Shown here piece after piece: positions 1,417-21,076 of a stretch of 23,377 nt of DNA (position 1 is the stretch's first letter; every line of letters begins with the position of its first letter). The DNA lies in the NCBI GenBank assembly GCA_016709335.1, contig JADJNC010000037.1, positions 1-23,377 of the forward strand, in the 5' to 3' direction. Both the position numbers and the translations under genes were made by a program. The notes under the pieces are model-generated. The model was not told where the DNA came from. It was given only the letters and a program-made list of their open reading frames with translations, and searched no databases. This stretch comes from Candidatus Propionivibrio dominans. Its GTDB lineage: Bacteria; Pseudomonadota; Gammaproteobacteria; Burkholderiales; Rhodocyclaceae.

Positions 1417-2516
1417 ATGATCCAGAAGGAAAATTATCTCCCGATTGTCCTTATCCTCGCCGCCTGTTCAACCGGCGGTCAACGCCCGGACTATCGGCCC
1501 AAGTCGCCGCCCGAATATCGCGCCGAGGCCGAGTACATCGCGACCGGCAAGATTACGGACGGACGTCTGGCCTTTATCGACCCGAAAGCGCGAATACAGT
1601 TACAGCCGTCGCCCGGCGATGAAACCAACCCCGGTCAGGAAGGATTTGAAGTTCTGAACTCACGGGCCGACAGTGGCGGGTATTTCGCATTTGTCCAGGA
1701 AGTTCCGGTAACCCAGTATTTCAGAATAGTGCGTCAGGCGGATTGCGAAACCACCTCCACCATTACGCTGATCACCCCGGCGCTGGTCAAGTCCTCTCCC
1801 GATTATTACATCAAGAGCAAGCGCTTTACGGTGACAAGCCGCATTACAAATGCCTGGGCGATTTCAGTGAACACTTCAGGACACCTACCGACAAACGCCT
1901 TGAAGGCTCGGACGGTGCGGTGTTTGATAATCAAACGCTGACGAAGGTAGATAACAAGGCGCATTTTTTCTTGCAAACCTCAACCTGGCGCATGGCGGGA
2001 TGGGCAATCAAATTCGAAAACCCGTCCCATGAAGAAATCGTCGAAGGCCTCCGCCACAAGGCTTCTGGAAAGATTGACGAGTTGCAACAACAAACACTTC
2101 TATTCTGGATTCAGAAGAATCGATTGGCACAGTACAACGAGTTATTAACCCAATTGCTCCCCGTGAATGACCCGTATCAGAGCGGTTTGGTTTGGCGGAA
2201 CGTTGACTATGCCATCCTCCGCACCCTGGCGACGGTCGCCCCGGAAAAAGTATCCAACGAGGTCTGGCTGAAGGTTCTGGAAAAAGGGATAGCCCCAGGA
2301 AAACTGAATCCGAGCAACCCTGTAATAACTCAGTCCGGCAATGCCGCCGATATTGCGGCCAACGTACTGGCTTGCAAACAAGACGCCTCGCTGGTTCCTC
2401 GCCTCGAGGCGGTGGTTCGCGACGCGGGATCGCTCCAGCACAAAGTCGCGGCAGCCACGGCGCTGAAGGCCATGGGCCGATCCGATATCGTCGCGACCTA
2501 CATTCGTTCTCACTGA
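1417..2516 (+). CDS. Putative lipoprotein with HEAT-like C-terminal half, one frameshift
   Basis: The start MIQKENYLPIVLILAACSTGG is a short basic/hydrophobic leader ending in a lipobox (LAAC), which points to an outer- or inner-membrane lipoprotein. The frame changes once near 1825-1827: a TTT that would be TTTT joins ...YYIKSKRF to YGDKPHYKCLGDF... in one 366-residue protein. Before the shift is a beta-rich domain, including the FAFVQEVPVTQYFRIVR segment. After it the protein is mainly helical, with repeated Leu/Ala patterns ending in KVAAATALKAMGRSDIV, like a HEAT or Armadillo repeat. The gene is the first on the plus strand ahead of traF (75-base gap) and may belong to the transfer operon. 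The family was not recognised. An ATG at 1330 would add 29 residues before the leader and is unlikely. Confidence 0.6.
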
Positions 2517-2590
2517 CAACGATTTCTATCGTTCTGTCGCCACACCATTTTCTCAAATTCCATTTTCCTGTCCTTATTCAAGCGCCAAAA

Positions 2591-3417
2591 ATGCGAAAAC
2601 TTAGCTGGGCCATTTCTTTTGGTCACGGCCGCCCTGCTGGGAGTGCGTCCGCATTTTCTCTGGAACGGGCTGTCGCATCACAAGCCACCTGGTGGGACAA
2701 AACGCCCTGGGAGGAACCGGATCGCGGTTTTATCTGGTACCCCGACCCGATGGACCCGAAGCCCGAGAGGAAAAAGGACGTTGAGCCCCCGCCCAGGCCG
2801 AAAACCATCTATGAAATGACCACCCTTGAGGAGATCAAGAAGGAGCTCGAGCGCATCAAAGGCGATGCCGTTGTCAACCCCACCGAGGAAAAGGTTCTCG
2901 CCTTTCTTCGGGCTCAAAACTGGGTGATGGACAAGGCCTCCTTGTTTGCCGATGTCTCACGACGGGCCGTCTGGCGAAATCCCGATGTGAATTACGCGGC
3001 GCGCAGTCCGGTGGCCAACTTTGCGGTCCAGAATGCACGTCAACGGCAAACCCAGGAGCGCAAAGACACGATCAAGGCACTGGCCTCAACCCACGGCATC
3101 CTCTACTTCGCCCGCTCGGACTGCAACTTCTGCAAGGATCAGTCGCCGGTCCTGAAAGCGTTTTCAACCGCGACCGGCATGCCTGTCTTAACGATCTCGA
3201 TGGATGGCGGCCCGATCTCCATGTTCCCCGATGCAAAAAAGACAACGGTATCTCGCTTGCTTGCAAGGGCAACGGTATTCAAACGGTTCCTGCCGTCTTT
3301 CTCGTCAATCGTGCGACCAGGGAAATGACGCCGCTCGGGACGGGCGTCATCGCTGCGGACGATATTGCAGAACGCATCCGGGTGATCACCAGAACAACCC
3401 CGGGCCAAGAGTTCTAA
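2591..3417 (+). CDS. traF: Conjugative pilus assembly protein TraF, three apparent single-base indels
   Basis: TraF is a periplasmic thioredoxin-fold protein needed for pilus assembly in F-type type IV secretion. The signal peptide is recovered only by correcting one extra T in TTTT (2617-2620) and one missing base near 2642-2645, giving MRKLSWAIS-LVTAALLGVASA. The mature N-terminus TWWDKTPWEEPDRGFIWYPD is typical of the family. A thioredoxin-like domain follows (ILYFARSDCNFCKDQSPVLK), here keeping a CNFC redox pair that some TraF proteins have lost. Near the end one A is missing from the six-A run at 3235-3240. Repair continues the protein through NGIQTVPAVFLVN to a TAA at 3415-3417, for about 275 residues. 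traH begins one base after the stop. The order traF-traH-traG supports the call. Confidence 0.88.
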
Positions 3418-3418
3418 G

Positions 3419-4882
3419 GTGAAAACAGGAGCACGACTTGGCGCCGTCGCGCTCTCTTTGGCCCTTGCACTCGCGCCGGTCAATGCGGGTGCAGACTGGA
3501 TCGGTGATTTTTATGCCTCTGCCGGCGCCGGCATGAATGTGACGGCGCCGCAAGCCATTACGTCGCAGTCCGTCGTCGGTGTTTCCGGCGGGGGCCTTGA
3601 GTGGCGCATCCCCAACAAGAACTTCCAGATTGTCAGCGTTACTCCGCCACGGTTGAGCTCGGGTTGTGGGGGGATCGACATGTATCTGGGCGCCTATTCA
3701 TTCCCCAACAAAGATGCGTTTGTGCAGGCGCTGCGTAATTTCGGACAAGCGGCGATTGGCTATTTTTTCCAGTTGGCCCTGAAAACGATGGCGCCGGAAA
3801 TTGCGGCAACGCTCGAGGTCATCAATGATCTTGCGCAACGAATGAATGCGCTGGGGATGAACAGTTGCGCGGCAGCCAAACAGTTCGTGGACAATGTTGC
3901 GGGCGAATGGATGGAAAAGAACGCTCGCGACGCGTCCGGATACGCTCGGTCGATTGGATCGGCCGTTGATGAATTTGATTCGCTGCTCGGGCAACGATCC
4001 GGCGGCTACGCAAAAACAATGGAAGACAAATACAAGCAAAACTACAACAAATCGCAATCGGCATTGACCAAAGACGATGTCGCCACAAAACTTCCGGTTG
4101 AAGTGAATGTGGTGCACTATGTGTTGTCGCGATCGCGCGCCGTTGATATCACCGACGATGAGATCGGCATGATCATGGCTTTGGTCGGGCCTTCGTTAAT
4201 CATCAGGCAAGGGCAGGCGGATGATGGAACGCCTGCCCCCATCAATGCGGGGAAAGTCAAACTTCTCGACTTCAAGCAAATTCTCGGCGGCGAAGTGGAT
4301 GCGGGAGGGCTTCCTGTGGCCTTCAGTGTACTCATGCAACGCCAGCCCCAGTGCCTTGATCCACAGCCAGTCCAGGTGAGTTATCACTCATTTCATGGCC
4401 GCATCAATACTGTCATTACCAAAATACGCAGCAATATTTCGACCAAAACATCGGCGCTAACGCTGACCGCCGCAGAATTAAACGTCCTGAAGCTGGCGTC
4501 CGTTCCGATTTATCGAGCGGCCGCAATGGCAGAAACCACCGGCGTTGCACAGACCACCGCGCTGGTCCTGTTACCTGATCTTGCAGACTATGCGGCACTG
4601 GACGCCTCGATGCGCTTCGTCAATTATTACCTTGACATTCTTGACAAAGCGCTGGCGGCCACCGTCCAGGACCTGGACAAGACATACCATCCCGATGTCC
4701 AGAACATCAGAACGAGAATTACGGACATCAAGGCCGATATGCACCAGCAAGCGATTCAGCTCTACAAGGATAGAGGCGACCCATTCCAGAAGCTGGATCA
4801 GCTTGAACGCGCTGAACGGTACATGTATTCCAATCTCAACGTGATGCTGGGGGCCAACGCCCGTTTCGGCAAGAATCAATAA
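3419..4882 (+). CDS. traH: Conjugal transfer protein TraH
   Basis: TraH is a periplasmic, outer-membrane-associated component of F-type conjugation machines that works with TraF in pilus assembly and extension. The 487-residue frame is intact and starts at GTG, one base after the traF stop, which suggests coupling. Residues 5-25 form a signal peptide (LGAVALSLALALAPVNAGA). The family signature is clear: SSGCGGIDMYLGAYSF (about 80-95) with paired cysteines, and LGMNSCAAAKQ further on, corresponding to the INSC motif of F TraH. The C-terminal third is helical with heptad-like spacing, consistent with the coiled coils of the family. Length matches F-plasmid TraH (about 458) and its relatives. 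traG follows after 9 bases. Confidence 0.93.
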   Translation: MKTGARLGAVALSLALALAPVNAGADWIGDFYASAGAGMNVTAPQAITSQSVVGVSGGGLEWRIPNKNFQIVSVTPPRLSSGCGGIDMYLGAYSFPNKDAFVQALRNFGQAAIGYFFQLALKTMAPEIAATLEVINDLAQRMNALGMNSCAAAKQFVDNVAGEWMEKNARDASGYARSIGSAVDEFDSLLGQRSGGYAKTMEDKYKQNYNKSQSALTKDDVATKLPVEVNVVHYVLSRSRAVDITDDEIGMIMALVGPSLIIRQGQADDGTPAPINAGKVKLLDFKQILGGEVDAGGLPVAFSVLMQRQPQCLDPQPVQVSYHSFHGRINTVITKIRSNISTKTSALTLTAAELNVLKLASVPIYRAAAMAETTGVAQTTALVLLPDLADYAALDASMRFVNYYLDILDKALAATVQDLDKTYHPDVQNIRTRITDIKADMHQQAIQLYKDRGDPFQKLDQLERAERYMYSNLNVMLGANARFGKNQ

Positions 4883-4891
4883 GCGCTTCCG

Positions 4892-7800
4892 GTGAATACC
4901 TACACGATCTATGCTTATTTCAATGCCGACCAGATTCAGGCCGTGCTCAACTCAATCGTCATGCTTATGGGGTCAACGGCGCCGGACGGGGATTATTTGT
5001 CCGTACTGCGTGTTGCCGGCATGATCGGTCTGATTCTGTCGGTGACCATGGGTCTCGTACGCGCACGCGGCGAAGATGCCGGGATGTATCTCATCATGAT
5101 GGCCCTTTTTTACTCGATTCTTTTTGTTCCACGGGTGACCGTCACCATCGAGGAGAAGGGCGGCTATGCGGCCGGGGCGCCTGTGGCGGTCGATAACGTG
5201 CCCCTGGGCCTGGCATTCTTTGCGGCCACGACCAGCCATATCGGCTATTGGTTGACTGAACGCACTGAAACCATGTTTTCGTTGCCCAGCACAGAACTGA
5301 TGCTGGGCAGTCATGGTTTGTTCGGGGCCGCAAGAACGCTTCGTGAATCGCAGAGTGCGGCCATGCCGGACCCCGTTCTCGCGCAGGATATGGTCAATTT
5401 CATGCGTGACTGCATCAATCCGGAACTGATTACCAGTTCGGCAACCGTTGCCAGTCTGATGAAATCGACCAATCTCTGGAATGATTTCAATGCGCTGGGC
5501 TTGATCAACCCCGGACGAATGGTTGTTTTGGCCGGATCGTCAACCGTTGAACCGTGTGATACGGCCTATACCACGACGCTCGGCAGCCGCCTTGCCCCTG
5601 CCGCCACCGAAGAGGCGAGCCGGATTGCGCGCATCCTTTCGCCCAGTGCCCCTCTTGCCAACGCCAATACCATGCTGGCGGCGATGCTCCCGGCAGCAGA
5701 GTCCCTGATCATGACGGCCAGCGCATCGACGACGGAAGGGATCCGCCAGCGCATGATGATCAACATGCTCAATGACACCTCGGCAAACATGGCGCAGATC
5801 ATGAACGATCCGAGCGCAGCGCAGACGGCTCTGGGTACGGCCATGGCCTCTCAAGCGCCAATGCAGGCTATCGCGTCATGGCCAAGATTGCGCAGGAAAC
5901 GCTGCCCATGGTTCGCAACGCCATCGAACTGGCCATTCTGGGAGCTTTCCCCATCATACTGGTTCTCATTATTATGCGGGAAGCAAGGGCGGATTGGTGT
6001 TGCGATCCTACGTGATGACCATGCTTTGGGTGCAGTTGTGGGCACCCCTGTACGCCATCGTTAATTTTGTCGGGACGATGGCCCATGCAAAAAGCCTCAA
6101 GGCGTCCCTTGCGGGCGTTGACGGGATTTCCATATCCAACGCATCCGCGCTGATGAACACCACGATTTCTGGTGAAGCCATTGCCGGCATCCTGACGATT
6201 GCGGTCCCCATGATCGCCCTGGCCATCGTGAAGGGCGGCGAGGTCGCGATGTCGGGGGTGACGTCAAGCCTGACCTCCGGCGCTAACTCAGCCGCAACGC
6301 GAGCGGGCGGTGACGTGGGCACCGGCAACGTCAGCATGGGAAATACGCAATGGGGCAACCACAGTGCGAATAACACCTCCGCCAACCAGTCCAATGCCAG
6401 TTTTGGCTATACCGATCCCGGCATGGGCACTGTCAGGGTGCCCAGGGTTCGTACTCCATTACTCCGCAGGGCGGGTTTTCCAACGTGCCTATACAAGCAA
6501 TGTTGGCGCGAGTGCCTCGGTCGGCGCCCGGACGGGCGCGGGCCATGAGGCGTCATCCGGCACTGAAGCCACCAATTCACGCGGTTCCGAAACCTCATTG
6601 AACAGCGGTGTCGGCGGAAAATACACGGCCGCCAATGTCGCCTCTTTTGCTGCCGCTTTCCAGCAAATTGCCGGTCAGCGATGGGGCGGCAGTGAGCAAT
6701 TCAAAGCTGGCGACCAGGCGGCGAACAGTACGGAAGCCACAACGGGTTCGGCGCTGAACCAGGGCAATGAACAAAGCGCCGGCCTGGCTGTGAAGAGTCA
6801 AGCCAAATTGTCTGGCCAAGTAGGCGTAGGAGGAACCGCCCAGCAAAACACAACGGTTTCACGAGACATTACTCCAGGAAGCCAGGGCAAACCCGCAGGA
6901 ACAAATGTCAAAAACACCGGCGCTTTCAATGCCGCCGAACAGTTTTTGGGTTTAAAGAACACAACAGGTCGAGTTGGTCTCGATGCCTCTACGGGTGGCG
7001 AAATCAATAATGCTGAAACCCGCAAGGACGGATCAGGAACAAGCCAGTCGACATCGGACAAGGCTCAGGCCGAAAAGAATTTCGCCCAAGTCCGTTCTGC
7101 CGCAATGGAAGTGATGGCTTCGACTCAAAATTCCGGTGTGAAAGCGGCGGGCTACCAATTCCTTGGCGAGCTGGCATCGTCCACCGATGCCAAATTTGGA
7201 ACAAATACGAGGGCTACGCTGACCGATAAAGCGTCCGATGGCAATTCCCGTACCGATGGTCGCCACGCAGACGCTTCAGCAAGCCTGGGCAACGCGGTGG
7301 CCCAGCGCGCTATAGGGATCTATGGAACCCCCGAGGCGGCATTTGCCGCATTCAATAACGACCCGGTTGCCTTTGGTCGTGCCGTTGGCGATCCGGTGGC
7401 CAGTCGTGCGGCCATGGAAACGCTCCCATCGACTGCCCACCCAGTTTCTGGTATTGGCGGCTCAGTCCTGTCGTCACCGAGAGGGGTCAAAGAAACCAGC
7501 GTCGCCGGGAATGCCGCCGTGATGGCCGACAACGAGGGGAACCAGTTCGCCGCCCGAAGCGCTGCAGCGGGCTATCAAAATCAGGCAGACCATAAGGGGC
7601 AAGTTCCCAAGGAAATGCCCTCCCTGGAACAAGCAAACACCGCTTATACCGGCGTTAGCGGGGAAGTAATTTCAGGAAAGGCCGCTTCTCTTGCTCAACA
7701 GAGAACACAACGTGGCGTGACGATGGCCGCCCAGGCCATCAATGCCGATGAGCAAGGAATGTCACGCCTCATGAAAAGCGCGCTGGGTGGGGGGGCCTTC

Positions 7801-8052
7801 GAGTTCTTTGGCCTGAACAATGGCGGCAAGGAAACACAAGCACAACTGAATCGTCTGGCGGAGAACAGTCCGGAAGTCAGAGCCTCGCTGGATCAACTTG
7901 CCGCGCAAGGCGGCGCACCCACCGCAGATAATATGAACAAGCTTAACGCCGCGCTATCCACCTACCAAAACAAGCTTTCCGAGCAATATGGACAGTACTG
8001 GCGAGCTGCCATTCAGAATGCAGGGGAAGACCTCTTTGGTGGCAAACCGTAG
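4892..8052 (+). CDS. traG: Conjugal transfer mating-pair stabilisation protein TraG, four apparent one-base losses
   Basis: TraG spans the inner membrane. Its N-terminal part acts in pilus assembly, its C-terminal periplasmic part in mating-pair stabilisation and, in some systems, in entry-exclusion recognition. The GTG start lies 9 bases after traH. Repair gives about 1054 residues, normal for the family. Membrane segments include VLRVAGMIGLILSVTMGLV, MYLIMMALFYSILF, AIELAILGAFPIILVLIIM, WVQLWAPLYAIVNFVGTM and AGILTIAVPMIALAIV. A long hydrophilic tail rich in Ala, Gly, Ser and Gln follows. Frames join by one missing base each at about 5870-5875 (QAI-G-VMAKIAQ), 5975-5980 (IIM-AGSKGG), 6436-6438 (GGG, to TVRGAQGS) and 6488-6489 (CC, to NVPYTSNVG). 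Four losses in one otherwise well-conserved gene point to base-calling error. It ends six bases before the convergent minus-strand operon. Confidence 0.9.
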
Positions 8053-8681: not shown

Positions 8682-10189
8682 TCAGGGCATGTAAGGGCGC
8701 AAGAGACGCCCCTCGTCATCGAGGTAGTCCGGTGTTGATGGCGACACAGCGGCAAGATTGGAATGGATCGGTACCAGAACAGAGTACCGGGCGTCTTCAT
8801 AGACCTGTTTCCACTGACCGCTGGCCAGCGCCGCCTGCCGGATGGCCATGTCGTGACGCAGGAGGAGGGCGTCCGGACGGTGCTTCGCGATCAGTTTTTC
8901 CCATCCGGGTGCGGCGCGCGAGGCCAGATACCACTCGAAGAAAAACCGATCCCGGTAAAGATCCATCCGTCCGTCAATGAACACCGGCACCCGCCGGTGA
9001 ATCAGATAACTCGCTTCCAGCGTGTCCGACATCACCCGTCTTGAAAGATCATTCCTCTCAAGGAATTTCGTGGCCACTATCGGGTACTGCAGATTCATGC
9101 TTTCTTTCCAGCGTTCATTCCCTATCGCTGCGATCATCGGGAAGGCGGCGATCAACCCAGCCGACAACAACCCGTACAGGATCGGTCGGCTCGGGTCGGT
9201 CGTTCGGCTGACCATTTTCAGGTACTGGGGTGTTCGCGCCAGCAATGAGGCGGTCATCGGGGCCATGACCGCAGCGCACAGGGCCACTTGCCTGTTGGCC
9301 AGGATTCCGAACACCAGAAAGAATCCGGCGATCAGACCGATCGTCAGCCTCGGTTTCACCCCCGTAATCGCGATCACGGCAATGAAGGGCACCAGATTCA
9401 TGAGATAAAACCAGCCCAGTTCTGTCGTAATGTTAACCGGCGCCCACTCGGAGATGACCGACGCGCTGCGCAGCCCGCCAATCATCAACACCGTCGTGAT
9501 CGCCTTGTACCCGTAGGGGTTGACCAGCGTGGCCGCGAGTGAGGCGACAACGATTCCCCAGACAAAGGCCAGGCTTTTGTCGGATCGGATTGCACCCTTC
9601 TCAAAGGCTTCAAGCGTAAGCCCGATCGCTGCCAGACCGATCAGAACCAGCCCGACCACAAACCCCCCATGCAAATTGACCCACAACGCTATGACTATCG
9701 GGTATCCGATGAGGTAGCGCCGCTTTTCGGTGCTGAGCCATCCCGTCACCAGCCATGCCCCGACGGCCAGCAGCGCGAAGGTGAAAAGCTGCGGTCGCAT
9801 CGGCATCACGATCTGAACCAAGTTGCAAAGCACCGCGATACCCAGAGCGATAGCGGGATGGACGTAGCGTTCCGCGGCCTTCCACGCAAACCAGAGCGTG
9901 ATTCCCGCGAGCAGGACCGAGATGAAGTGGGTACCGCCGAGTCCGCCGATCCGGTAAGCGCCGCCCATAACGGCTTCGCCCAGCCATTGGGTGAGCTGGT
10001 AGGGCTCACCGGCCATTGTCCAGGAAAAAATATCCCCGCCAGAAGCCTCCCATTATCAATAATCCACTCACCGTAGGTGAGGTGCCAGTAAAAATCCGTG
10101 TCCGCAATTCCAGACGATGCCGGATAGACCGCCTTGATCCACAGAAAGGTCAGGAACACAAAGCGGGTGGTCAGGTAGCGGAATTTCAT
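8682..10189 (-). CDS. Polytopic inner-membrane protein, GT-C-like glycosyltransferase candidate (paralogue 1), one frameshift
   Basis: This 502-residue membrane protein probably transfers sugar from a polyprenyl-linked donor at the periplasmic face of the inner membrane, the role GtrC plays in gtr cassettes. The N-terminus (MKFRYLTTRFVFLTFLW) leads to the motif DTDFYWHLTYGEWIIDNGRL. An Asp/His/Trp first loop of this kind is found in a family of large GT-C-like proteins. About ten hydrophobic segments follow. The C-terminal soluble part begins near VFIDGRMDLYRDRFFFEWYL. One T is missing from a six-T run (A run at 10025-10030): repair joins DNGRLLAGIFF to SWTMAGEPYQLTQWLGE, exactly parallel to paralogue 2. 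Its ATG overlaps the stop of paralogue 2 (ATGA). The donor and acceptor cannot be read from the sequence. Confidence 0.72.
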
Positions 10190-11705
10190 TTTTGGAGTTG
10201 TTCAAGCAGATCCTCGTTGTTCGTCGCTACAACGGTTTCAAGGTCAGGACGCGAACTGCCTTTGACCATGACCGAGTAACGCGGGCCGATATAAACTATT
10301 CGGTAGAGTGCCGACTCGGTCGCGAGCTGTCGAAGCGCAGAATGGTTGCTGGCAAGAATGATCTCGGGATCAAGGCGTTGCAGGTAAGTCTTCCAGTTCG
10401 TCGCGCCCTTGCTGGCCAACAGATATTCGAACAGAGTCTTGTCGCCATACAAATCGAGCCTTGTATCGAGCGCGACCTTGCGTCCTGTCTGCCGAATCAA
10501 AAAACCACCTGCCTCCGGAGGATTGAGCAATCGCCCTACCAGCGCGTTTTCCTTCATGAACTGCGCCTCTTGCTGCGGGAAGTTCTGGTTGACGTAGTTT
10601 CGTGCTGCACGGTCGGCGGGCGACACCGTCAGACTGATGGCCAGAGTGGTGATGAGGACTAAACACGCGATGATCGGGTTGACCTTTCGGTCGTATCGGC
10701 GTGCGTTTCCGTCGAAAACGACTCCATAAAAAGGGGGTGTGAATCAGCCAGGCTGAAATGATGGGCACCATAAGAATGGTCATCATCAGCGAGACCCGGA
10801 TGGCCGACCAGCCGGCGGCCGTCAGCGCAAACGCACACAGCATTGATCCGAGGAGGGACGCTTGACGCTGGCGATCATGCACGCAAACATGGTAGTCGTG
10901 ACAATGAAGAAATTGAATCCGACGTCCCCTTTGATTGAGGTGGCGGCCCACTCGTCGACGATTCCAGCGGAAGAGGACTTCAAGTTGGCAATTTCCATGG
11001 CGTACTGCCATGCCCCCCAACCGTAGGGATTCATCAATGTCGCCAAGGTACCTGCCAGTGCGGCCCAACCCAAAGGGGCGCAGCTCGAAAGGATGCCGGC
11101 ACACTCGTTACGAACAAAGTTGTCGGCCGCGATGGCGCCAACAAGCATCCACAGATACGCGAGTCCGACGGCATACCCCCCGTGCAGATTGACCCACAGG
11201 GCAAACAATGGGGCAATCCAATACAGGGGTTTCCTGAGGCCCGTGGTCATGTACGCCGCAATGATCCACGTCAGGCACGCCAGTCCAAGATGGGTAAATT
11301 GGTGCGGCCGGCACGAAAGCGACACCAGGATCGCATTGCAACCTGCCGCTACGGCCAGTGCGGCCAGGCGGTTGTCCAGATAGCAACGCGCCGCCCGGTA
11401 GGAACAGGTCAGTGTCAGGCAAATCAGCAAGGCTGCCAGCACTGACGTACCCACTTCGCCCCCGGCGCGGTTGGCCAGCGCCATGACGACTTCACCCAAC
11501 CATTGCGTTAAACGGTAGGCCTTGCCCTCCATGGTCCATGACCAGAAGTCCGCCGTAGGCAAACGCCCATTGTCCAGAATCCAGTCGCCGTAGGAGAGAT
11601 GCCAGTAATAGTCCGGATCGATAATGCCCGAACCGGTTGCCGCGGGTGCGCGATAGATAAACAGCGACAGGATCGCGACAAAGGGATGGTCAAATAGCTC
11701 AACAT
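10186..11705 (-). CDS. Polytopic inner-membrane protein, GT-C-like glycosyltransferase candidate (paralogue 2), three apparent indels
   Basis: This tandem paralogue of the gene downstream shares DPDYYWHLSYGDWILDNGRLP, SWTMEGKAYRLTQWLGE, ALWVNLHGGYAVG, NPYGWGAWQ and a C-terminal segment beginning near LDTRLDLYGDKTLFEYLLAS. Repaired length is 506 residues, against 502 for its neighbour. The start is placed at 11705 (MLSYLT), because correcting one missing G at 11683-11685 gives MLSYLTIPFVAILSLF, matching MKFRYLTTRFVFLTF of the paralogue; it overlaps the stop of the 57-residue gene. A second base is missing at GGG 10855-10857, and one base is extra in the A5/G5 run 10728-10737 (giving HTPFYGVVFDGNARRYD). 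It is probably a membrane glycosyltransferase acting on lipid-linked sugars. Whether the two copies make different linkages is unknown. Confidence 0.7.
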
Positions 11706-11872
11706 CCGAGGGCTTCCGAACATCGTTTTTTAAGGACATCCAGCAGAATCTCGGCGTCGTTCACTGCATCGACAGGATCACGCACCAGGTTTTCCTTGAT
11801 CGCCTTCTTCAGCCAAAAGGAAACATCGCGACGTTCGAGCAATTCGTCCGCCATCGCATCGGACGTGTTCAT
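11699..11872 (-). CDS. 57-residue helical protein inside the glycosylation operon
   Basis: The ATG at 11872 overlaps the GtrA stop as ATGA, and the stop overlaps the next gene's start, so this is clearly an operon member and not spacer. The product (starting MNTSDAMADELLERRDVSFW) is soluble, highly charged and predicted all-helical, with NDAEILLDVLKKR near the end. It has no membrane segment or signal peptide. The family was not recognised. An earlier in-frame ATG at 11887 would add five residues, but the coupled start is preferred. A regulatory or scaffold subunit for the membrane enzymes is a guess from position only. Confidence 0.65.
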   Translation of the reverse strand: MNTSDAMADELLERRDVSFWLKKAIKENLVRDPVDAVNDAEILLDVLKKRCSEALGC

Positions 11873-12156
11873 TTTTGCTGTGAACATTCGTGCTCCCTGA
11901 AAACGAAGTGTCGGGAGAGAACATAAGTCACCGTCACGTGGCTTAAAATCGCTGCGGTCTGGGCCACATAGGCGTTGGTCAGTCCAAGGCCGATCCCGAG
12001 CGTCAACAGGTTGGCCAGGTAGCCGGCGGCGATGGTCGGGAGATAGCGCGCAAAACCGACAAACGGCCTTGCGGCAAAGATCACTCCCAAGCCGAGCAGT
12101 GTATTGACCATCCCAACCCCGATGAATCGCCACAGCACCGGGTCAAACATCCGCAT
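11869..12156 (-). CDS. gtrA: GtrA-like membrane protein (polyprenyl-phosphate-sugar flippase type)
   Basis: GtrA family proteins are small four-helix inner-membrane proteins thought to flip undecaprenyl-phosphate-linked sugars to the periplasm during O-antigen or teichoic-acid modification. The 95 residues show the pattern: WRFIGVGMVNTLLGLGVIFA (helix 1, with the conserved NTLLG), then YLPTIAAGYLANLLTLGIGL, a third segment, and a final helix ending YVLSRHFVFRE, matching the N/RRxFVF ending of the family. It is at the short end of the family range (about 120 is usual). It overlaps the methyltransferase stop (start 12156, stop 12143) and is followed by the 57-residue gene with ATGA coupling. 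Directly upstream GT2 and methyltransferase genes support the role. Confidence 0.82.
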   Translation of the reverse strand: MRMFDPVLWRFIGVGMVNTLLGLGVIFAARPFVGFARYLPTIAAGYLANLLTLGIGLGLTNAYVAQTAAILSHVTVTYVLSRHFVFREHECSQQK

Positions 12157-12907
12157 ACGCAGGCTTCCTCAGTACCCAGCATTGTGTCCATAGCAGATGG
12201 GACAGAACATCCGATCGTCGCAAAACATCGGCGCCCCATCGGCAAACGCTAGCGCCGACACTTCCGCCAAATTCAGCAACGACAGGCAAATACAAGGCGA
12301 CGTCGTAGCGCTCGACCACTTCAAAGCCGGCCATTTCAATTTGTTTTCTCAGCGCGGCCCGCGTCAGTCGGTTAACGTGGCCAAGGTCATCCACGGGCTC
12401 GCTATAGACCCAACGCGCCAGAGCGGCGACCAGCTTGAATCTGAGTAATCGTGCAAACAACTCCATCGTCGAAAAGCGGTTGGGCGTGGTCAAAATGAGA
12501 AGCCCATTGGATTTGAGCGCCCTGAAAATATTGTTGAGTGCCGCTTGTGAATGGACGATGTGCTCAATGACTTCCGAACAGACCGCAATATCGAATTCCG
12601 AATCGTATTTTGTCTCTTGCGTTATATCGCCGACACGCGCATCGACATTGCGCAAGAAATTGGCGGCTAGAACGAAGTCCTCGTTAATATCGAGACCCGT
12701 TACAAAACCATGCCGTGCCATCCATTCCGTGTACACGCCGCAGCCAATTCCCACCTCCAGAAAACGTGCGCAAGGCGACGTAACCGATTCCAGCTTCGAG
12801 AGGACCCAGGCTCGGCGCGTGGTGTGCAGCCATTTCCTGGTGGGGTTTTGACTCTCGTAAAGATTGGCCTGAAAGCCAATATCCCTTTGCCTAAGCGTTT
12901 CGGGCAT
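12143..12907 (-). CDS. Class I SAM-dependent methyltransferase
   Basis: This 254-residue protein carries a Rossmann-fold SAM site: FLEVGIGCGVYTEWM (motif I, about 49-63), GLDINEDFV (about 71-79) for ribose binding, and FDIAVCSEVIEHI followed by GLLILTTPN. This is the Methyltransf_11/UbiG-like layout of small-molecule or sugar methyltransferases. The start is placed at 12907 (MPETLRQRDIGFQ), overlapping the end of the GT2 gene by 17 bases; the earlier ATG at 12985 would lie deep inside GT2. In this cassette the likely substrate is a sugar or a lipid-linked glycan precursor, but the acceptor is inferred only from neighbours. Confidence 0.8.
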   Translation of the reverse strand: MPETLRQRDIGFQANLYESQNPTRKWLHTTRRAWVLSKLESVTSPCARFLEVGIGCGVYTEWMARHGFVTGLDINEDFVLAANFLRNVDARVGDITQETKYDSEFDIAVCSEVIEHIVHSQAALNNIFRALKSNGLLILTTPNRFSTMELFARLLRFKLVAALARWVYSEPVDDLGHVNRLTRAALRKQIEMAGFEVVERYDVALYLPVVAEFGGSVGASVCRWGADVLRRSDVLSHLLWTQCWVLRKPAYADV

Positions 12908-13894
12908 ACAAGACCTTGCTGGCATTGGAATGAAAGGGCCGAATATCGTCCAAAGCTTCGCCGTAGCCTTGTGTGGATTCCACAATCAAAAGGGGGCGCT
13001 GCTTTGTTTCTGCGAGGAGGCGACCGATGTATTCGCCAAGAACGCCAATACCGATCAACTGCACTCCACCAAGAAACAGGACGACACTCATCAAGGTCGC
13101 AAACCCCGGCGTGACCGTTCCCCAGTAAAGTGTTTTGAAGACGATCCAGCCGGCGTAGACGAAAGCACACAGTGCAATCATGGCGCCCAGGTAAGTCCAG
13201 ACTCGCAGCGGAACCGTCGAGAATGACGTGATGCCGTCCAATGCAAAATTCCAGAGCTTCCACACATTGAACTTCGTCTCGCCTGCAGAGCGTTCGGGCC
13301 GGTCATATTCCAGAGTTGCTGCCTTGAAGCCCGCGGCCGCCATGATTCCCTTCATGAAACGATTGCGCTCTCGGAATGAAAGAATGGCCTCGACCACAAC
13401 TCGGTCCATCAATCGGTAATCGCCACAGTTCCTGGGTATGGAAACGTCAGTGATTGAAGACATCACCCGGTAGAATGATTTCGCCGATTCGCGCTTGAGC
13501 CATGAGTCGGTCAGACGGTTGCGGCGAAGCGCATGAACCACCTTGTACCCTTCCTCCCACTTGTCGATCATGCCGGGAATCAACTCCGGGGGGTCCTGCA
13601 AATCGCAGTCCATCGGGATGATTGCGCCGCCCGTTGCGTAGCTGAGGCCTGCCGTCAATGCCGCCTCTTTCCCGAAATTCCTGGAGAGTTTGATAAAACG
13701 AACGCAGTCGTTATCGTGGGCCAGCGCAGACAGGATGAAAGATGTTCTGTCGCTCGACCCATCGTCTACGAACACCATTTCGAAGTCATACCCGGTACAG
13801 GCCATGATGGGCATGACGCGATCAACGAAACCGTGAATGGACTCTTCTTCGTTATAGGCCGGGATGACCAGCGAGATTTTCTTATGGGGGGCAT
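12891..13894 (-). CDS. gtrB: GtrB/DPM1-type family 2 glycosyltransferase, one apparent base loss at the start
   Basis: This enzyme makes a polyprenyl-phosphate sugar (undecaprenyl-phosphate glucose or similar) from a nucleotide sugar on the cytoplasmic face. The GT-A domain shows SLVIPAYNEEESI (about 8-20), FVDDGSSDRT, LSRNFGKEAALTAG, the DxD-type motif MDCDLQDPPE (Asp96/Asp98) and RERNRFMKG. Two C-terminal membrane helices follow (near YLGAMIALCAFVYAGWIVF and LMSVVLFLGGVQLIGIGVLG). The N-terminal 27 residues are open upstream of an internal ATG. The natural start at 13894 needs seven C where the sequence has six (G run 13886-13891), giving MPPHKKISLVIP and 334 residues. It starts 4 bases after the ParR-like stop, so it is co-transcribed with parMR. 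Confidence 0.87.
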
Positions 13895-13898
13895 TGTC

Positions 13899-14244
13899 TC
13901 AACCCATCGAAGTTGGCTTGGCAAAAATTCTGCCGGGCAGCCGGGCGTGCTGAGCCGCACCTTCCTTGGGCTTGTGTTTTCAGATGGAGAGCCGGCCAGC
14001 TCGGCCCTCTCTGAAGACTGCGACTGGGCCAACACCGCAGGATCGGGGAACTTGACGCCGCCTTTTCTGCTTGACGTGGGGACGAGGCGACTGCTGATCC
14101 GCTTTCAGCCAGCGCGCCAGCACGAACCAGTTGCCTGATTCGACGTGTTCGTGCGATTCCTGTCAGCGGTGACAGGATCGCGTAAAGTGCCGGATCCTCG
14201 TCGTGGTGGATACGGACTTGCGCCCGAATCATTGGCTTGTTCAT
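13899..14244 (-). CDS. ParR/StbB-like partition adaptor, two apparent base losses
   Basis: The protein lies directly downstream of the actin-like ParM, the usual place for the DNA-binding adaptor that links parC to the filament. The start MNKPMIRAQVRIHHDEDPALY has the beta-strand/helix look of a ribbon-helix-helix partition protein, followed by IARTRRIRQLVRAGALAESG. Two corrections give a clean 115-residue frame: a missing G in GG (CC at 14099-14100), leading to ISSRLVPTSSRKGGVKFPD, and a missing A in AAAA (TTTT at 13977-13980), leading to a basic tail (KHKPKEGAAQHARLPG) and TGA at 13899-13901. A strong GAGGAA ribosome site overlaps the parM stop. Homology to a named family was not proved; position is the main support. 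Confidence 0.6.
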
Positions 14245-14255
14245 CGATCGATTCC

Positions 14256-15305
14256 TCAGGCGTGGGTCGTGACCCGGAGGGCGGAGTCAGCGATCAGCTC
14301 GCCGAATTCATGAAACCCGCGGACATTGGCTAACGCGGGAGCCGGCAGGGTCGCTACCTCATGCTGCGGGTAATGTTTCTTGATCGCAGGCAAGAAAAAC
14401 CGGGCGCCGCCACCTGACACAATCACCACGTCGAGGCCTTCACCCACCCCTACGTTATTCCGAATCGCCTGGGCCGCCTGCTCAATGATTGCGCTTCCGG
14501 CTTTCATGTGCGGCTTCAGGTCGATTTCCTTCCCGGCCAGTCGAAATTCATCCCCTGAGATCAATGCCTGATCCAGCATGCGGACCACCGTACTTTCATT
14601 CGCGGCCATCCCGGAGGCTTTGATGACCGACTTCGCAACCTCACGCAAAAATGCACCCATCCCGCGTTCAACCCCATCCGACTGGTCCGGATTGGCCACC
14701 ATCCCCATGCAGGTAATCCAGTCGACCGTGTGGTATCCGACATCGACGATCAGCGCCGTTGGCGCATTCTTGATTTTGTGAGCCTTCTTCTGGAGGTAGG
14801 TCGCATAACTTCCCAAGGGTTGCGGATAGACTGCACAGTGTCGGATTTCAAGCGTGTCACCCTTCATGTTGATGGTGTGCTTCCCAACGAATCGGCGCTG
14901 CAAAGCGGCAGCGTGCGGCTTGAGCGTCTTCATCGGCAAACCCAGCATGAGATAGTCGATGTAACCTGAGGGCAGGGTGCTGAGCATGTAATTGAACGCC
15001 CCGTAGAGACGAGCCGTGTAGCCATCGCTCAGCGCGAATCGGTCGTCCAATTGCTCAAGCTCCTGGTTCTTTCCGAAAGCCATGCAGACTTGACGGCCCA
15101 CTTCATAATGGATCTCGTTGACCGGCACCACGAAGGTATCTCGCCGCTGCATGATCTCCGTTTGGAAATCACTTTCGATGGCCAATGGTGCCTGTGAAGG
15201 AAAAACGTCGGCCAGGATCAGCCCTGTATCATCCCGACCTTCTGACCATTTCACGTGGCCGTAGCCCACGTCGACGGCCCGGACAATTGGTGTGTTCTTT
15301 TGCAT
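14256..15305 (-). CDS. parM: ParM/StbA-like actin-family partition ATPase
   Basis: Actin-like ATPases of this type polymerise and push plasmid or ICE copies apart. The 349 residues contain the three nucleotide-binding signatures of the actin superfamily: phosphate 1 (AVDVGYGHVKW, about 10-20), phosphate 2 (ALIVDVGYHTVDW, about 184-196) and the adenosine loop (VVIVSGGGARFF, about 300-312). The start at 15305 is chosen because GGGAG lies 6 bases upstream; an ATG 45 bases further out has none. The frame is intact. Iterated GCGAC-type motifs lie directly upstream and look like a parC site. In SXT/R391-like ICEs comparable srpMRC genes support partition. Here the operon continues into glycosylation genes. 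Confidence 0.85.
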   Translation of the reverse strand: MQKNTPIVRAVDVGYGHVKWSEGRDDTGLILADVFPSQAPLAIESDFQTEIMQRRDTFVVPVNEIHYEVGRQVCMAFGKNQELEQLDDRFALSDGYTARLYGAFNYMLSTLPSGYIDYLMLGLPMKTLKPHAAALQRRFVGKHTINMKGDTLEIRHCAVYPQPLGSYATYLQKKAHKIKNAPTALIVDVGYHTVDWITCMGMVANPDQSDGVERGMGAFLREVAKSVIKASGMAANESTVVRMLDQALISGDEFRLAGKEIDLKPHMKAGSAIIEQAAQAIRNNVGVGEGLDVVIVSGGGARFFLPAIKKHYPQHEVATLPAPALANVRGFHEFGELIADSALRVTTHA

Positions 15306-15474
15306 GAAAACTCCCGCGTTGAATGTCACCCAATTCTTAAGGATGAGCACGCCACGGGGAAGTCAGATACCTCGTCAAAAGAGGTGGGGTAGGTGTGGAA
15401 ATGGTTGATCGCTCGATAAATATTCAGTTTTGAATAACTCGTCGGGCAGGGTTGTAAAAGGAGCGATGGAACGG

Positions 15475-15680
15475 TGACGAAATCGCTTCGAAAATGCGAC
15501 AAAACAGCAACACTTCGACGACACAAAACGAGCCGTTTTGAAGTTGCAGAAAGAAGGACTTAAACGATGCACAAAATGCGACGAAAACGCGAAGGAATTA
15601 CGACGTAAACCTGGTCATCAAATGCAGTTGTAGAAACGTCGCAGAATCAGCGACGAAACAGCAACGTAATAGCGACTAAA
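15475..15680. repeat. Iterated GCGACRAAA-type motifs, parC-like centromere candidate
   Basis: Seven related copies of a (G)CGAC(G/A/T)AAA-like word start near 15475, 15496, 15515, 15578, 15600, 15650 and 15672. Clear copies are TGCGACAAAAC, TGCGACGAAAAC, GCGACGAAAC and GCGACTAAAC. Most spacings are 20-22 bases or close to a multiple of that, so the copies would fall on about the same helix face. Two inverted repeats lie among them: CAAAACG-agc-CGTTTTG (15524-15540) and CGTCGC/GCGACG (15637-15655). The position directly upstream of parM fits a binding site for the ParR-like protein, which in ParMRC systems also represses the parMR promoter. Confidence 0.55.
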
Positions 15681-16776: not shown

Positions 16777-16914
16777 ATGGACCCAGTACGTAAAAATTTT
16801 GCAATGAGCCTGCACGCCGAGGAGGACTTTCTCAAACGCGCGCTGCGTGATTTTCGGGTGGAAGAGCGAGACGTTACCGACGTAGAGCTTGCCCATCTTT
16901 TCCCGATGTATTAA
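16777..16914 (+). CDS. 45-residue acidic protein upstream of the recombinase
   Basis: ATG at 16777 is preceded by GGAG with 6-base spacing and opens a frame for a compact charged protein (start MDPVRKNFAMSL, end ELAHLFPMY). It contains EEDFLKRALRDFRVEERDVTDVEL, so it is mainly helical, acidic and cytoplasmic. The gene lies 43 bases ahead of the recombinase with a second ribosome site between, so the two are probably co-transcribed. The family was not recognised. A small partner for the recombinase, such as a directionality factor, is possible from position only; there is no visible DNA-binding motif. Confidence 0.6.
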   Translation: MDPVRKNFAMSLHAEEDFLKRALRDFRVEERDVTDVELAHLFPMY

Positions 16915-16957
16915 AGGACGGCGAACCTTCCGGTCGCCGCTTGATAGGAGAAAATTT

Positions 16958-17979
16958 ATGGCACATAAATCCCTGGCCAGCCAGATTCTTCCCAAGCCCC
17001 TGCATGACGATATCGAACGGCAGATCCAACCGCACTTGAGACAGCGTGCCTCCGGCGACGGGGTGTGCTCGACCAAGACGGCACGCGAGCGCCGTGGGCA
17101 CATTCTTGGCACGGTCGCCTGTTTGTGGCAACTGGGCTACCGGATTCGCAAGCTCGACTCCCTGGACAAACGACACATAGACGCCCTGATGACCCATTGG
17201 GAAGCGGAAGGATTGTCGGCAGAGTTTCTTCACAACCGCGCTTCGGTGCTGCGAACGCTGGCAGGTTGGCTGGGCAAGCGGCACCTGGTGGGCGATCTTT
17301 CCGACTACTTTCCAAAGGAACGCACCCGGCGCAAGACGTCGACCGATGAGGATCTTTCGTGCAAAGGAAAAGGGATCGATCCGATTAAAGTCATTGCCAT
17401 GGCCCGGACGATTGATGAACGGCTGGCGGCCATGTTGGCCATGCAGCACGCATTCGGACTGCGGGTCAAGGAATCCATTGAAATTCGTCCGGCCAACTCG
17501 GTTGTCGACGGCGGCGATTTTATCGAAGTTTTTTCCGGTACCAAGGGAGGCAAGCTGCGCCGGATTCCTCTCACGGATGAGTATCAGCGCACCACACTGG
17601 CATGGGTACGGCAAGTGGCCGCTGGCGGAAAAACCGGTCGTTTGCGTTGGACGGACACCACCTGGCGCCAGGCGCAGAACCGCTACTACTACCTGGTACG
17701 CGACCGACTGAGGATTTCAAAGGCTCAATCGGACTTTACGTCGCATGGATTCCGCCACGGCTATGCGCATAAAGGCTATGAGGACAGGACGGGCCACCCG
17801 CCGCCGGTAGTCGTCGAAAGGGACAGCGTAAGCCGGTACCGCCGCCGGGTCTGGATCGTGAGACGCATCTGCGCGCTTCCTTGGCGGTTTCACGCGCCTT
17901 GGGCCATGAACGCCTGAGCGCCACCACATCCTATTATGGGACGTATGGCCACCGTTTCCGGCGCCGTGGAGAAAGGTAA
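16958..17979 (+). CDS. Tyrosine recombinase/integrase-domain protein, one apparent base loss
   Basis: This site-specific recombinase of the phage-integrase superfamily starts at 16958 (MAHKSLASQILPK) with AGGAG 7 bases upstream. An N-terminal SAM-like core-binding domain (about 35-120) precedes the catalytic domain. Catalytic residues visible are the first Arg in HAFGLRVKESIEI (about 169), a likely Lys in FSGTKGGKLRR, HGFRHGYAH (His and second Arg), then LGHERLSATTSYYG with the terminal His and nucleophile Tyr. The last segment is recovered only by adding one base near 17807, joining TGHPPPV to SRRKGQRKPVPPPGLDRETHL, for 340 residues and TAA at 17977. Recombinases of this type occur inside ICEs and plasmids rather than at their ends, often near radC. 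It may be the element integrase or a resolvase. Confidence 0.82.
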
Positions 17980-18170
17980 AGATTAAGCGCTGAGTGTCCT
18001 TCCCTACATCGGTGGGGGAAACGGTCGCTGCCTACGATTTACAAACTGTTCCTGTCCATTCTGACGGGCGTTTACGTATTGACGTTCAATGCGACAACTC
18101 GGCACACGCCGAACCTGTGGTGCATTGCTGGCCATAGTCAACTGCACGGACGTACTCGTGCTCAAACCCT

Positions 18171-18187: not shown

Positions 18188-18200
18188 GACGGGTTAATTG

Positions 18201-18226
18201 CCTCCTGAGATTACATATGAAGGAGG
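18201..18226 (+). promoter_or_regulatory. Possible ribosome-site-sequestering hairpin of radC
   Basis: CCTCCT (18201-18206) is the exact complement of the very strong Shine-Dalgarno AGGAGG (18221-18226), seven bases before the radC ATG. The two could pair around a 14-base loop and hide the ribosome site. The sequence shows the pairing potential; regulation is inference. Confidence 0.4.
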
Positions 18227-18233
18227 TATCGAA

Positions 18234-18704
18234 ATGGAAATGCGCGCAATCGACATGAGCAATGCCGAATTGTTGGAAATCCTTTGCGGTTCAGCAGGGC
18301 GCAGCTTGGCCAGGCATCCGCTTCCGGAGGTATTCGGGATTTGTACGCCCAGGCAGCGAAACCTGCTGGCGGGTGAAGAACGTGAACCCTATCTGGTTCA
18401 TCCGAAGCTTGCCGCCGCGAAGGAGCTCTACGTCCGGGCCATTCAGGAAGATATGAACGTGGCGGACATCATTTTCAGTACGCCCAATGCGGTCACGTCC
18501 TACCTGTCGGGTCGCCTCGGCATCTACGAGCACGAGGTCTTTCTGTGTCTGTGGATGGATGCGAGGAATCGGTTAATTGCCTCTGAAGAGTTGTTTCGCG
18601 GCACGTTAACCCAAACCTCGGTGTATCCGCGGGAAGTGGTTAAGAGGGCACTATTTCACAATGCAGCTGCGGTGATCTTTGCCCACAACCATCCTTTATG
18701 TTGA
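18234..18704 (+). pseudogene. radC: radC (JAB/MPN-type), 3'-truncated by transposon insertion
   Basis: RadC-like proteins of plasmids and ICEs carry a JAMM/MPN metalloprotease-like fold of uncertain function. The start ATG at 18234 has AGGAGG seven bases upstream. The body has the family core: EVFLCLWMDARNRLIASEELFRG in pieces, then the helix REVVKRALFHNAAAVIFAHNHP. The zinc-binding HxH is present, but the sequence departs from the family exactly where SG and the downstream Asp should follow. After CAT CCT the frame reads TTA TGT TGA and ends. Everything after about 18696 belongs to the inserted element, so the protein lacks an active-site residue and should be non-functional. The missing 3' part should lie beyond the far end of the transposon. 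Confidence 0.85.
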
Positions 18705-19190: not shown

Positions 19191-21076
19191 GCGGCACCTC
19201 CTTGTTGGCATCGTCATCGATCACACGGATCAACAAGCGCGCCTCGGTGAGACGTTCGCGCACGATGCGCAAGGTCTGGATTGGCAGCGCTGGTTCGTTC
19301 AGTAACGCCTCGTGCCGGCGGACCTGCTCGTCCCAATAGGGTCGATGTTGCGCCGACACCGCAAAGTTCTTGCAGCGCGCGCAGGTCGATGGTTCCTGCG
19401 TGCCGGGTTGGGTCCGACTGCATTGCCTGGGCAAGCGGCGTGCTCTTCCCGGTAACCTGGAACCCCAGTCGCACACGCCGAGCACAAGGCCAGCGTCCAT
19501 AACAAACGTGCATAGCTCTTGACGTCCTGCTTGAGCCGCCCGCCCCCTGAAGCGCGGGCGCTTCGCGACTAATCTCGGCACCGGCGCGTCACCAGACCCG
19601 GTGCGGCAAGCATGTGTTCCCAAGCCGCGACCGACTGCTCCAGGATCTCGGACTCGATCTCCTGGTTGAGACGATAGTCCGTGCCGGCGTAGCCATGATC
19701 AGTGATGGCACGTTCGCGATGACCGAGATGCTGGGCCAGCGCGAACAAAGCAGAGCCATCGCGCAGCGCCGCGAACCGGGCGAAGGTCTTGCGGCCCTGA
19801 TGCGTCGAGAGCCGCCATACCTTACCCTGATGATGGGGCAAACCAAGCCAGGAAACGAAGCGCTGCAACAACCCACGTATCCGCATGACAGACGTGATTT
19901 GGAGATAGCCAGGGCACACCTGCTGCCACTCCGTGGCACCGGAGATCTGACGACGGCGTAGCCACAACTCATTGCGAACCGCTTGGGCACGATGCCCGGC
20001 GGACAACGCTTCGAGGACCGAGATGGCCTGGACAGCTGGTGGCGGAGCTACCCACTCGTGAGGTCGGCCATGGTACTCGGCCTGGCGCTTGAAGATGGCG
20101 CCGACGATCACGGTGATCGCATCATCGGCGTTACCGTCTCCACGACGCTGTACGCAGCCGGCCTGCAGATGCAGGATCTCGCTCGCCCTGGGACCCACGA
20201 GGTAGGAGATGACGACAAAGCAGGCGGCATAGAGCATGTCAATCAGTTGTGCGGGGTCATCCACCGTTCGGATCGGCTGTACCCTCCCGGGAAGGAGCGA
20301 TGGCAGCCAGCTGCAGCGCACGTGTTGCTGCAGTGGTGCAAGCATCAACGCCATAGCCGCGCTGGCTGGCGGAGGCCATCGCTGCGGCGTACACCTGCCT
20401 TGCCTCCAGAATGCAGGCTGCGCTGTTGGTCACCACATTGATGGCGCCACGGACCAGGGCAACGGCAACGCCGTCAAGTTATAAAGGCCAGTGCCGAATC
20501 TCTGCGTCGCGCACTCGGCAGCATCCCCATGGCTGCGGCCCGGAAACGGGTCGATCTGTAGCCCGTCATCAAGCTCGTGGCGAAAGCGATAAAGGTAGGT
20601 GAGCGGGTAGAAGTACTTCTGCACCGTCGTTGGCGCCAGCACCCGCACGTGCAATACCCGGACGTTCGCTCAGCGAGCGCTGAAACTACAAGATCGCCGT
20701 GGCATCGAGATCGGCAAAGCGCGTGAAACCGCTTGGTCAGCCAGCGCACAAGTTCGCGCAGATAACTGAAATAACCGGAAACCGTACTGGCCCGCTGTGC
20801 CAGACCGGTGCTCAGTGATCGGGTGCGGATGAGTGCGATGAGCTGCTTGCTGGTCTCCAGCAATGGCGCATACCGGTCATCGGTGAAGTACCGTCCGCCT
20901 GTGAGCGTGAAGTTCCAGTCGACCCGCACGGGTCTGGCCTCTTCCAGTGCATTGGTCGGCGCGAAGAGCCAGACGGCATTGTGCCAGGCCGAGTCGCGAA
21001 GAAACCATACGCGATCGATAGGCCGACCATTTGGACTTGGGTTACTCGATGGACGTTGCTCATGGCTGGGCTTCAT
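19168..21076 (-). CDS. tnpB: TnpB-like tyrosine recombinase, several frame changes
   Basis: This is the largest recombinase of the element, about 635 residues, close to Tn554 TnpB (about 630). The start at 21076 (MKPSHEQRPSSNP) overlaps the previous stop as ATGA. The N-terminal part shows RVWFLRDSAWHNAVW and a core-binding region (STVSGYFSYLRELVRWL). The catalytic domain contains SYLVGPRASEILHL (Arg), STHQGRKTFARF (His and Arg) and AQHLGHRERAITDHGYAGTDY (His and Tyr). The C-terminus has a cysteine-containing segment around TCARCKNFAVSAQHRPYWDEQ, as in the TnpB family. Frames change around 20690, 20640, 20500-20460, 20390-20350 and 19570; most appear to be single-base losses. One in-frame TAG appears in one reading near 20687 and disappears in the neighbouring frame. 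Confidence 0.75.

Follow-up and report, generated by a model that had tools for sequence, protein, structure and literature searches.

We analysed a stretch of 23,377 nucleotides from Candidatus Propionivibrio dominans (contig JADJNC010000037.1; "the window" means this whole stretch) and looked at a cassette of six genes on its minus strand (8682..13894), which encodes two related GT-C membrane enzymes (GT-C2 and GT-C1), a small protein, a GtrA-like putative flippase, a methyltransferase and a GT2 glycosyltransferase. We lean modestly towards the reading that this is a plasmid-borne extracytoplasmic glycosylation operon, and its genes appear, from the overlaps seen in two plasmid relatives, to be the downstream part of a parM-parR operon that faces a tra operon. 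Plasmid records were searched by distant-mode BLAST, and the proteins of one relative, pSTJ1, were placed on the window by tblastn. Two plasmid records, pSTJ1 from Sulfuricystis multivorans and pAZI09 from Azospira sp. I09, were found to carry tra genes together with much of the cassette. Their annotated order is traF-traH-traG followed, on the opposite strand, by GT-C2 (503 or 477 residues), GT-C1 (504 or 502), the small protein (47 or 56), GtrA, the methyltransferase, GT2, a ParR-like protein (113 or 119) and a ParM-like protein, and then by an integrase gene; in pAZI09 a few extra genes, one of them an IS110 transposase, stand between traG and GT-C2. The ParM-like protein of both plasmids is annotated as 'PRTRC system protein D', and that of pSTJ1 passes the NCBIfam model TIGR03739. 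The full order of the cassette is kept in three of three elements of this lineage (the window, pSTJ1 and pAZI09), and as both order and identity are matched by the two plasmids, the grouping of these genes is not a matter of chance. An earlier reading of the window made from its letters alone (the sequence-only reading) had proposed to look for this order near traFHG or parMR in other genomes, and the two plasmids answer that search. It had also placed the cassette between a type IV secretion block and the maintenance genes of an integrative and conjugative element; the traF/traH/traG and ParM-like neighbours were borne out, but not the kind of element, since both complete relatives are circular plasmids and an integrase gene is the sole integration-type feature cited for the window element as an integrative and conjugative one.

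The overlaps were taken from the annotated plasmid coordinates, and the two pSTJ1 junctions at parR were read as well. The values are the same in pSTJ1 and pAZI09: 4 nt are shared between parM and parR, 4 nt between parR and GT2, 1 nt between GT2 and the methyltransferase gene, and 4 nt between the latter and the GtrA gene. Further downstream the genes are spaced apart, with 44 or 2 nt before the small open reading frame, 4 nt before GT-C1 and 7 or 98 nt before GT-C2. Because the genes from parM to GtrA overlap in this way, the glycosylation genes seem to continue the partition operon. The cassette is therefore carried on an element with conjugation genes, as had been claimed, but by these overlaps it belongs to the parM-parR operon and not to the tra block. 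Its expression would probably follow plasmid maintenance rather than transfer, and since the cassette lies downstream of parM-parR and runs against tra, cells that bear the plasmid probably all make the modification. In the window, a ParM/PRTRC-D-like actin gene is the first of the presumed operon (14256..15350, minus strand; matches to PF17989 and PF21522, 49% identity to ParM of pSTJ1). The ParR-like small gene (13882..14244, minus strand) was placed by position alone, between ParM and GT2 as in pSTJ1 and pAZI09; ParR of pSTJ1 (113 residues) gave no tblastn match in the window at E ≤ 0.01. Upstream of parM, three 25-nt direct repeats (15476..15676, no strand; two copies 72% like the first) are a possible centromere, or else due to chance.

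The products of the cassette were assigned by profile searches. GT2 (12891..13883, minus strand), a GtrB/ArnC/PgfS-like polyprenyl-phosphate glycosyltransferase, scored 93.1 bits with PF00535 and is 70.6% identical to its pSTJ1 counterpart. The latter (P0006) has two C-terminal hydrophobic segments and found as its best PDB match 'glycosyltransferase sll0501' (5ekp; 380 bits, E 7.8e-113), which we take to be the GtrB structure, ArnC being weaker. By sequence it thus appears to be a GtrB-type polyprenyl-phosphate GT2 with C-terminal membrane segments; its best NCBIfam model was PgfS, at 292.5 bits against an equivalog cut-off of 500 that it did not reach. The class I S-adenosylmethionine methyltransferase (12143..12907, minus strand; PF13489, 74.2 bits; 58% identity to pSTJ1) would probably act on the sugar. 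The GtrA-like putative flippase of the window (11869..12156, minus strand; 95 residues, 37% identity to pSTJ1) scored 23.1 bits with PF04138, under the cut-off of 26.1; GtrA of pSTJ1 (P0004, 72.5 bits) and that of pAZI09 (P0010, 77.2 bits) are above it. A single metagenome protein (P0072) is a fusion of GtrA with GT-C1. The small protein (11699..11887, minus strand; 57-62 residues) is 58% identical to that of pSTJ1 over 38 residues. Its family, with a motif around RDPVDALNDAE, counts 1,319 proteins at E ≤ 0.01, and the members run against Pfam and NCBIfam gave no match. A family so widespread and generic weakens the case for this protein as a member of the pathway, and the role that the sequence-only reading had given to a 57-residue protein in the route is doubtful.

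GT-C1 (10189..11706, minus strand; 53.9% identity to pSTJ1) is an oligosaccharyltransferase/ArnT-like membrane glycosyltransferase with broken frames, and GT-C2 (8682..10189, minus strand; 64.5% identity to pSTJ1) is its paralogue, with one frame break near the start. Pieces of both window proteins matched no Pfam or NCBIfam model, and the two GT-C groups are without a model in the Pfam and NCBIfam runs made here; a PDB sequence search with the GT-C1 profile gave no match at E ≤ 10. For the GT-C1 relative P0013, a model built on 59 sequences reached a mean predicted local distance difference test score (pLDDT) of 94.7. Its nearest chains by Foldseek and VIA-align were oligosaccharyltransferases, Pmt4, AglB, DPY19, PglB and ArnT, with a structural alignment reaching residue 481 of 504, and on account of these neighbours we assign it the GT-C fold. 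For GT-C2 the same fold is predicted by homology to GT-C1 alone (32% identity between P0001 and P0002). An acidic D-x-D pair near the N-terminus was invariant in 31 aligned GT-C1 and 30 aligned GT-C2 sequences. Searches for relatives scored the 8,000 best candidates, fragments included: among the best 120 of 160 GT-C1 matches, 91 had at least 41% identity, after which identity fell to no more than 36% for the GT-C2 type, and among the best 120 of 172 GT-C2 matches, 78 had at least 42%. As a proxy for a shared contig, we paired GT-C1 and GT-C2 clusters whose longest contig has equal length (n = 24), which with the two plasmids gave 26 pairs. Over these pairs the GT-C1 and GT-C2 distances correlate (Mantel r 0.80, with 0 of 5000 permutations as high), an agreement from which the cassette appears to be inherited as a unit. 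In the viral structure library BFVD, the best row for the GT-C1 model was Q684B0 (580 residues, E 2.4e-3, probability 1.00, TM 0.46), which may be a viral GT-C enzyme.

Judged from the families, the chemistry is very probably that of a lipid-linked sugar which is flipped and then transferred by GT-C enzymes in the periplasm. In the pathway that we propose, GT2 would charge polyprenyl phosphate with a sugar on the cytoplasmic side, GtrA would help to flip the lipid-sugar towards the periplasm, both GT-C enzymes would pass the sugar, perhaps sequentially, to lipopolysaccharide or an exported protein as surface acceptor, and the methyltransferase would cap or modify the sugar. The activity, acceptor, constitutive expression and benefit of the cassette are what we infer in this scheme. 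Since sugar-transfer genes are joined to plasmid-keeping genes, a cell that carries the plasmid probably bears altered sugars on its exterior, and a place in the par operon would fit with a surface that is altered generally in the resident cell. Phages use gtr operons for surface (O-antigen) conversion, and the modification would be made in every plasmid-bearing cell in the manner of such lysogenic conversion. The gtr-like logic that had been read from the sequence (a GtrB-like GT2, GtrA and a GT-C enzyme) is supported by the same order in three elements and by family and fold matches. Like the phage gtrABC operons of the Shigella and Salmonella P22 type, the cassette has these three components and sits on a mobile element; unlike them, it has a pair of GT-C paralogues for which no Pfam model was found, an extra methyltransferase and a plasmid par operon.

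A second parallel is PgfS-PgfM1-PgfE-PgfM2 of Streptococcus mutans, in which PgfS, PgfM1 and PgfM2 are thought to glycosylate surface proteins. Both have one PgfS-like GT2 and two related membrane glycosyltransferase-like proteins (32% identity between GT-C1 and GT-C2), the likeness to PgfM1/2 being one of arrangement, whereas the cassette lacks an epimerase, has GtrA and a methyltransferase, resides on a Gram-negative plasmid and has a GT2 below the PgfS cut-off. This close parallel speaks for protein glycosylation, in which the two GT-C enzymes would act on an exported protein (conjugative pilin, TraN, a host pilus or an adhesin), and in the structural rows protein glycosyltransferases stood slightly above ArnT. 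We nevertheless hold this to be rather unlikely, as oligosaccharyltransferase and ArnT differ little in Z, GT2 does not reach the 500 bits of PgfS, the cassette lies in the par operon, opposed to tra, and no target mark was seen in TraA, which both plasmids encode as a short pilin (by eye only, no prediction being run). A further likeness is with three-component pentofuranose systems (GT136, Citrobacter youngae), which also combine a lipid-sugar synthase, a flippase and a periplasmic GT-C enzyme. According to PMC11127046 these use a MATE-family flippase and a polyprenyl phosphoribose synthase, whereas the cassette has GtrA and a GtrB-like GT2 in those roles. Plasmid-encoded phosphoethanolamine transfer to the O-antigen of Shigella flexneri (PMC3458804) is likewise a case of a plasmid converting the host surface, but with different chemistry and genes. 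In the portions of the literature that the search returned, no description of the cassette was found: each part is of a known kind, and neither the linkage to a par operon on a MOBH plasmid lineage nor the paired GT-C groups were met there.

The benefit of the proposed operon could also be exclusion, with the surface change masking a receptor used by phages or by a second conjugative element. Exclusion genes often stand beside traG, and the block that comes after traG is the cassette. TraG is the partner of the entry-exclusion proteins TraS (PMC7690428) and EexC (PMC11493245), F-type mating-pair stability is affected by lipopolysaccharide and OmpA (PMC7690428), and periplasmic gtr-type glycosylation leads to O-antigen seroconversion (PMC11127046). 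The exclusion factors described in the passages cited are, however, proteins (TraS, TraT, EexC and Sfx), and pSTJ1 and pAZI09 hold a more conventional candidate: soon after traG, as the first gene in pSTJ1 (L001:14169-14576) and the second in pAZI09 (L002:14737-15021), they encode a small protein in which a hydrophobic stretch was seen by eye. The two are 59% identical, which makes this a candidate entry-exclusion protein, and no match to it was found in the window. When 10 proteins of pSTJ1 were screened with PADLOC, the sole outcome was a methyltransferase-domain match to mad2 (44 bits), and on balance we find exclusion unlikely. We judge equally improbable the wider idea that a segregation operon has recruited a two-enzyme glycosylation pathway with two undescribed GT-C families, whose glycan would be a self-mark that shields the resident plasmid from superinfection by plasmids and phages.

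We then looked at the distribution of the cassette. The GT-C family is rare in whole genomes, with carriers in 7 of the 399 sampled from the order and 7 of the 297 sampled from the family (E ≤ 1e-30); one genome (S. multivorans, by coordinates) is common to both sets of carriers, and only S. multivorans and a Dechloromonas metagenome-assembled genome scored better than 1e-200. A profile search of genome contigs yielded two GT-C loci only. That the cassette accompanies F-type transfer systems in general was rejected: a TraG relative (E ≤ 1e-60) was present in 31 of 297 genomes, and just one of these 31 (S. multivorans, by coordinates) had the GT-C family, both counts coming from what seems, by the genome handles, to be one draw. 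When 20 of 39 TraG places were fetched, 17 of them with at least 5 kb beyond traG, none held cassette genes at E ≤ 1e-4, and no cassette gene was found in three related plasmids that were checked. The TraG N-terminal parts of the three cassette-bearing elements are at least 64% identical to that of pSTJ1. The link between cassette and conjugation is real but narrow. Confinement to one chromosomal locus unrelated to conjugative elements, which the sequence-only reading had named as telling against itself, was not seen for the close family, although distant relatives do sit at places without tra genes. At 14 other, mostly distant GT-C loci, a GT2 was found within about 2.2 kb in nine (six of seven, three of six short stretches, and not at the one further GT-C of pAZI09); as a rough control, the same GT2 search in 20 TraG stretches found none. 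This further, third GT-C relative of pAZI09 (29% identity) lies away from the cassette (NZ_AP021845.1 183293-184759; L023) and has no annotated glycosyltransferase in its neighbourhood. At three loci of one lineage (L014, L015 and L016), a GT-C, a GT2, a methyltransferase and an EamA-like protein stand beside a Tad pilus locus (Pfam on L016, the other two by eye), and at L003 another GT-C type (45%) is flanked by genes that by eye are RecG-like and RdgC-like.

The condition of the window's own copy was studied by frame-aware alignment of 10 genes, the TraG C-terminal part being left out. Eight or nine frame breaks were detected in 5 of the 10 genes: one in traF, two in the TraG N-terminal part, two or three in GT-C1 (according to the relative used), one in GT-C2 and two in the integrase gene. 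No break was seen in traH, the methyltransferase gene, the GT2 body or parM, nor in GtrA, whose alignment is poor. GtrA of the window lacks 34 residues present in that of pAZI09, and in GT2 the first in-frame start codon (13814) comes only about 23 residues into the conserved protein. Full-length relatives are close, P0048 (506 residues) being 92.8% identical over 278 residues of the window GT-C1 piece and P0168 (502 residues) 94.1% over 444 residues of GT-C2, and as they exist at 93-94% identity the breaks must be recent or sequence errors. There was no support for homopolymer errors behind every break: a run of at least 5 was near only 2 of 8 (with P0063 as GT-C1 relative). The window copy is thus probably inactive or mis-sequenced. 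We see an even balance on whether the cassette is here a decaying passenger, or its breaks sequencing errors, with nothing to be concluded from this copy: the number of breaks, their recent or artefactual character, the GtrA loss and their presence in tra and integrase genes too speak for it, whereas the four unbroken genes speak against it. Of the full six-gene route claimed before, GT2, the methyltransferase, the GtrA-like and short open reading frames and two GT-C-like proteins are all there on the minus strand by hidden Markov model search and synteny, but not all intact.

Several points weigh against a plasmid-borne glycosylation operon. The full order was met in only three elements, one of which, the window, has a broken copy (frame breaks and the 34-residue loss in GtrA), and no acceptor or donor sugar is known for the cassette. 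Five of the 14 other GT-C loci, including the third GT-C of pAZI09, are without a GT2 in the stretch seen, and such a GT-C therefore need not stand beside GT2. IMG/VR scans with GT-C1 and GT-C2 profiles gave pattern matches and 0 confirmed relatives, and BFVD gave no match to the GT-C1 model at E ≤ 0.001. If the conserved, intact form joined to ParMR holds, such plasmids would convert the host surface as part of their maintenance; two named environmental strains offer a testable case, and two sizeable GT-C groups are marked.

The transfer genes facing the cassette are F-type. In the window they are traF, traH and traG (2372..8052, plus strand; PF13728, PF06122 and PF07916), with 61% (traF) and 53% (traH) identity to pSTJ1; by tblastn against TraG of pSTJ1, the N-terminal part of traG is 65-67% identical and the C-terminal part about 29-30%. 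The window contributes these three only, while mobH, traD and F-type mating genes are annotated upstream in pSTJ1 and pAZI09, the set of pSTJ1 being mobH, traD, traL, traE, traK, a VirB10-family gene, traV, traC, traW, traU, trbC and traN. From its gene content this set would transfer DNA; in PLSDB, pSTJ1 is classed as 'mobilizable' and not as conjugative, and pAZI09 is classed as 'conjugative' with MPF_T. In pAZI09 the product of the gene after GT-C2 (L002:16880-17419) begins with what by eye looks signal-like and matches a GDSL-like esterase model below cut-off; it is possibly a glycan acyl modifier. Beyond parM, the window has a tyrosine integrase gene syntenic with those of pSTJ1 and pAZI09 (16889..18072, plus strand; PF12834/PF12835, 53% identity to pSTJ1), broken near its end, followed by a RadC-like JAB-domain gene (18198-18704). 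At 19569-22813, where G+C is higher (about 0.62-0.65), two integrase-like open reading frames (495 residues, weak, and 261 residues) flank one of 200 residues, possibly a recombinase-trio element or another insertion. At the left end, a DNA/RNA non-specific endonuclease (PF01223) is encoded at 10-885, and pSTJ1 holds other genes upstream of traF.

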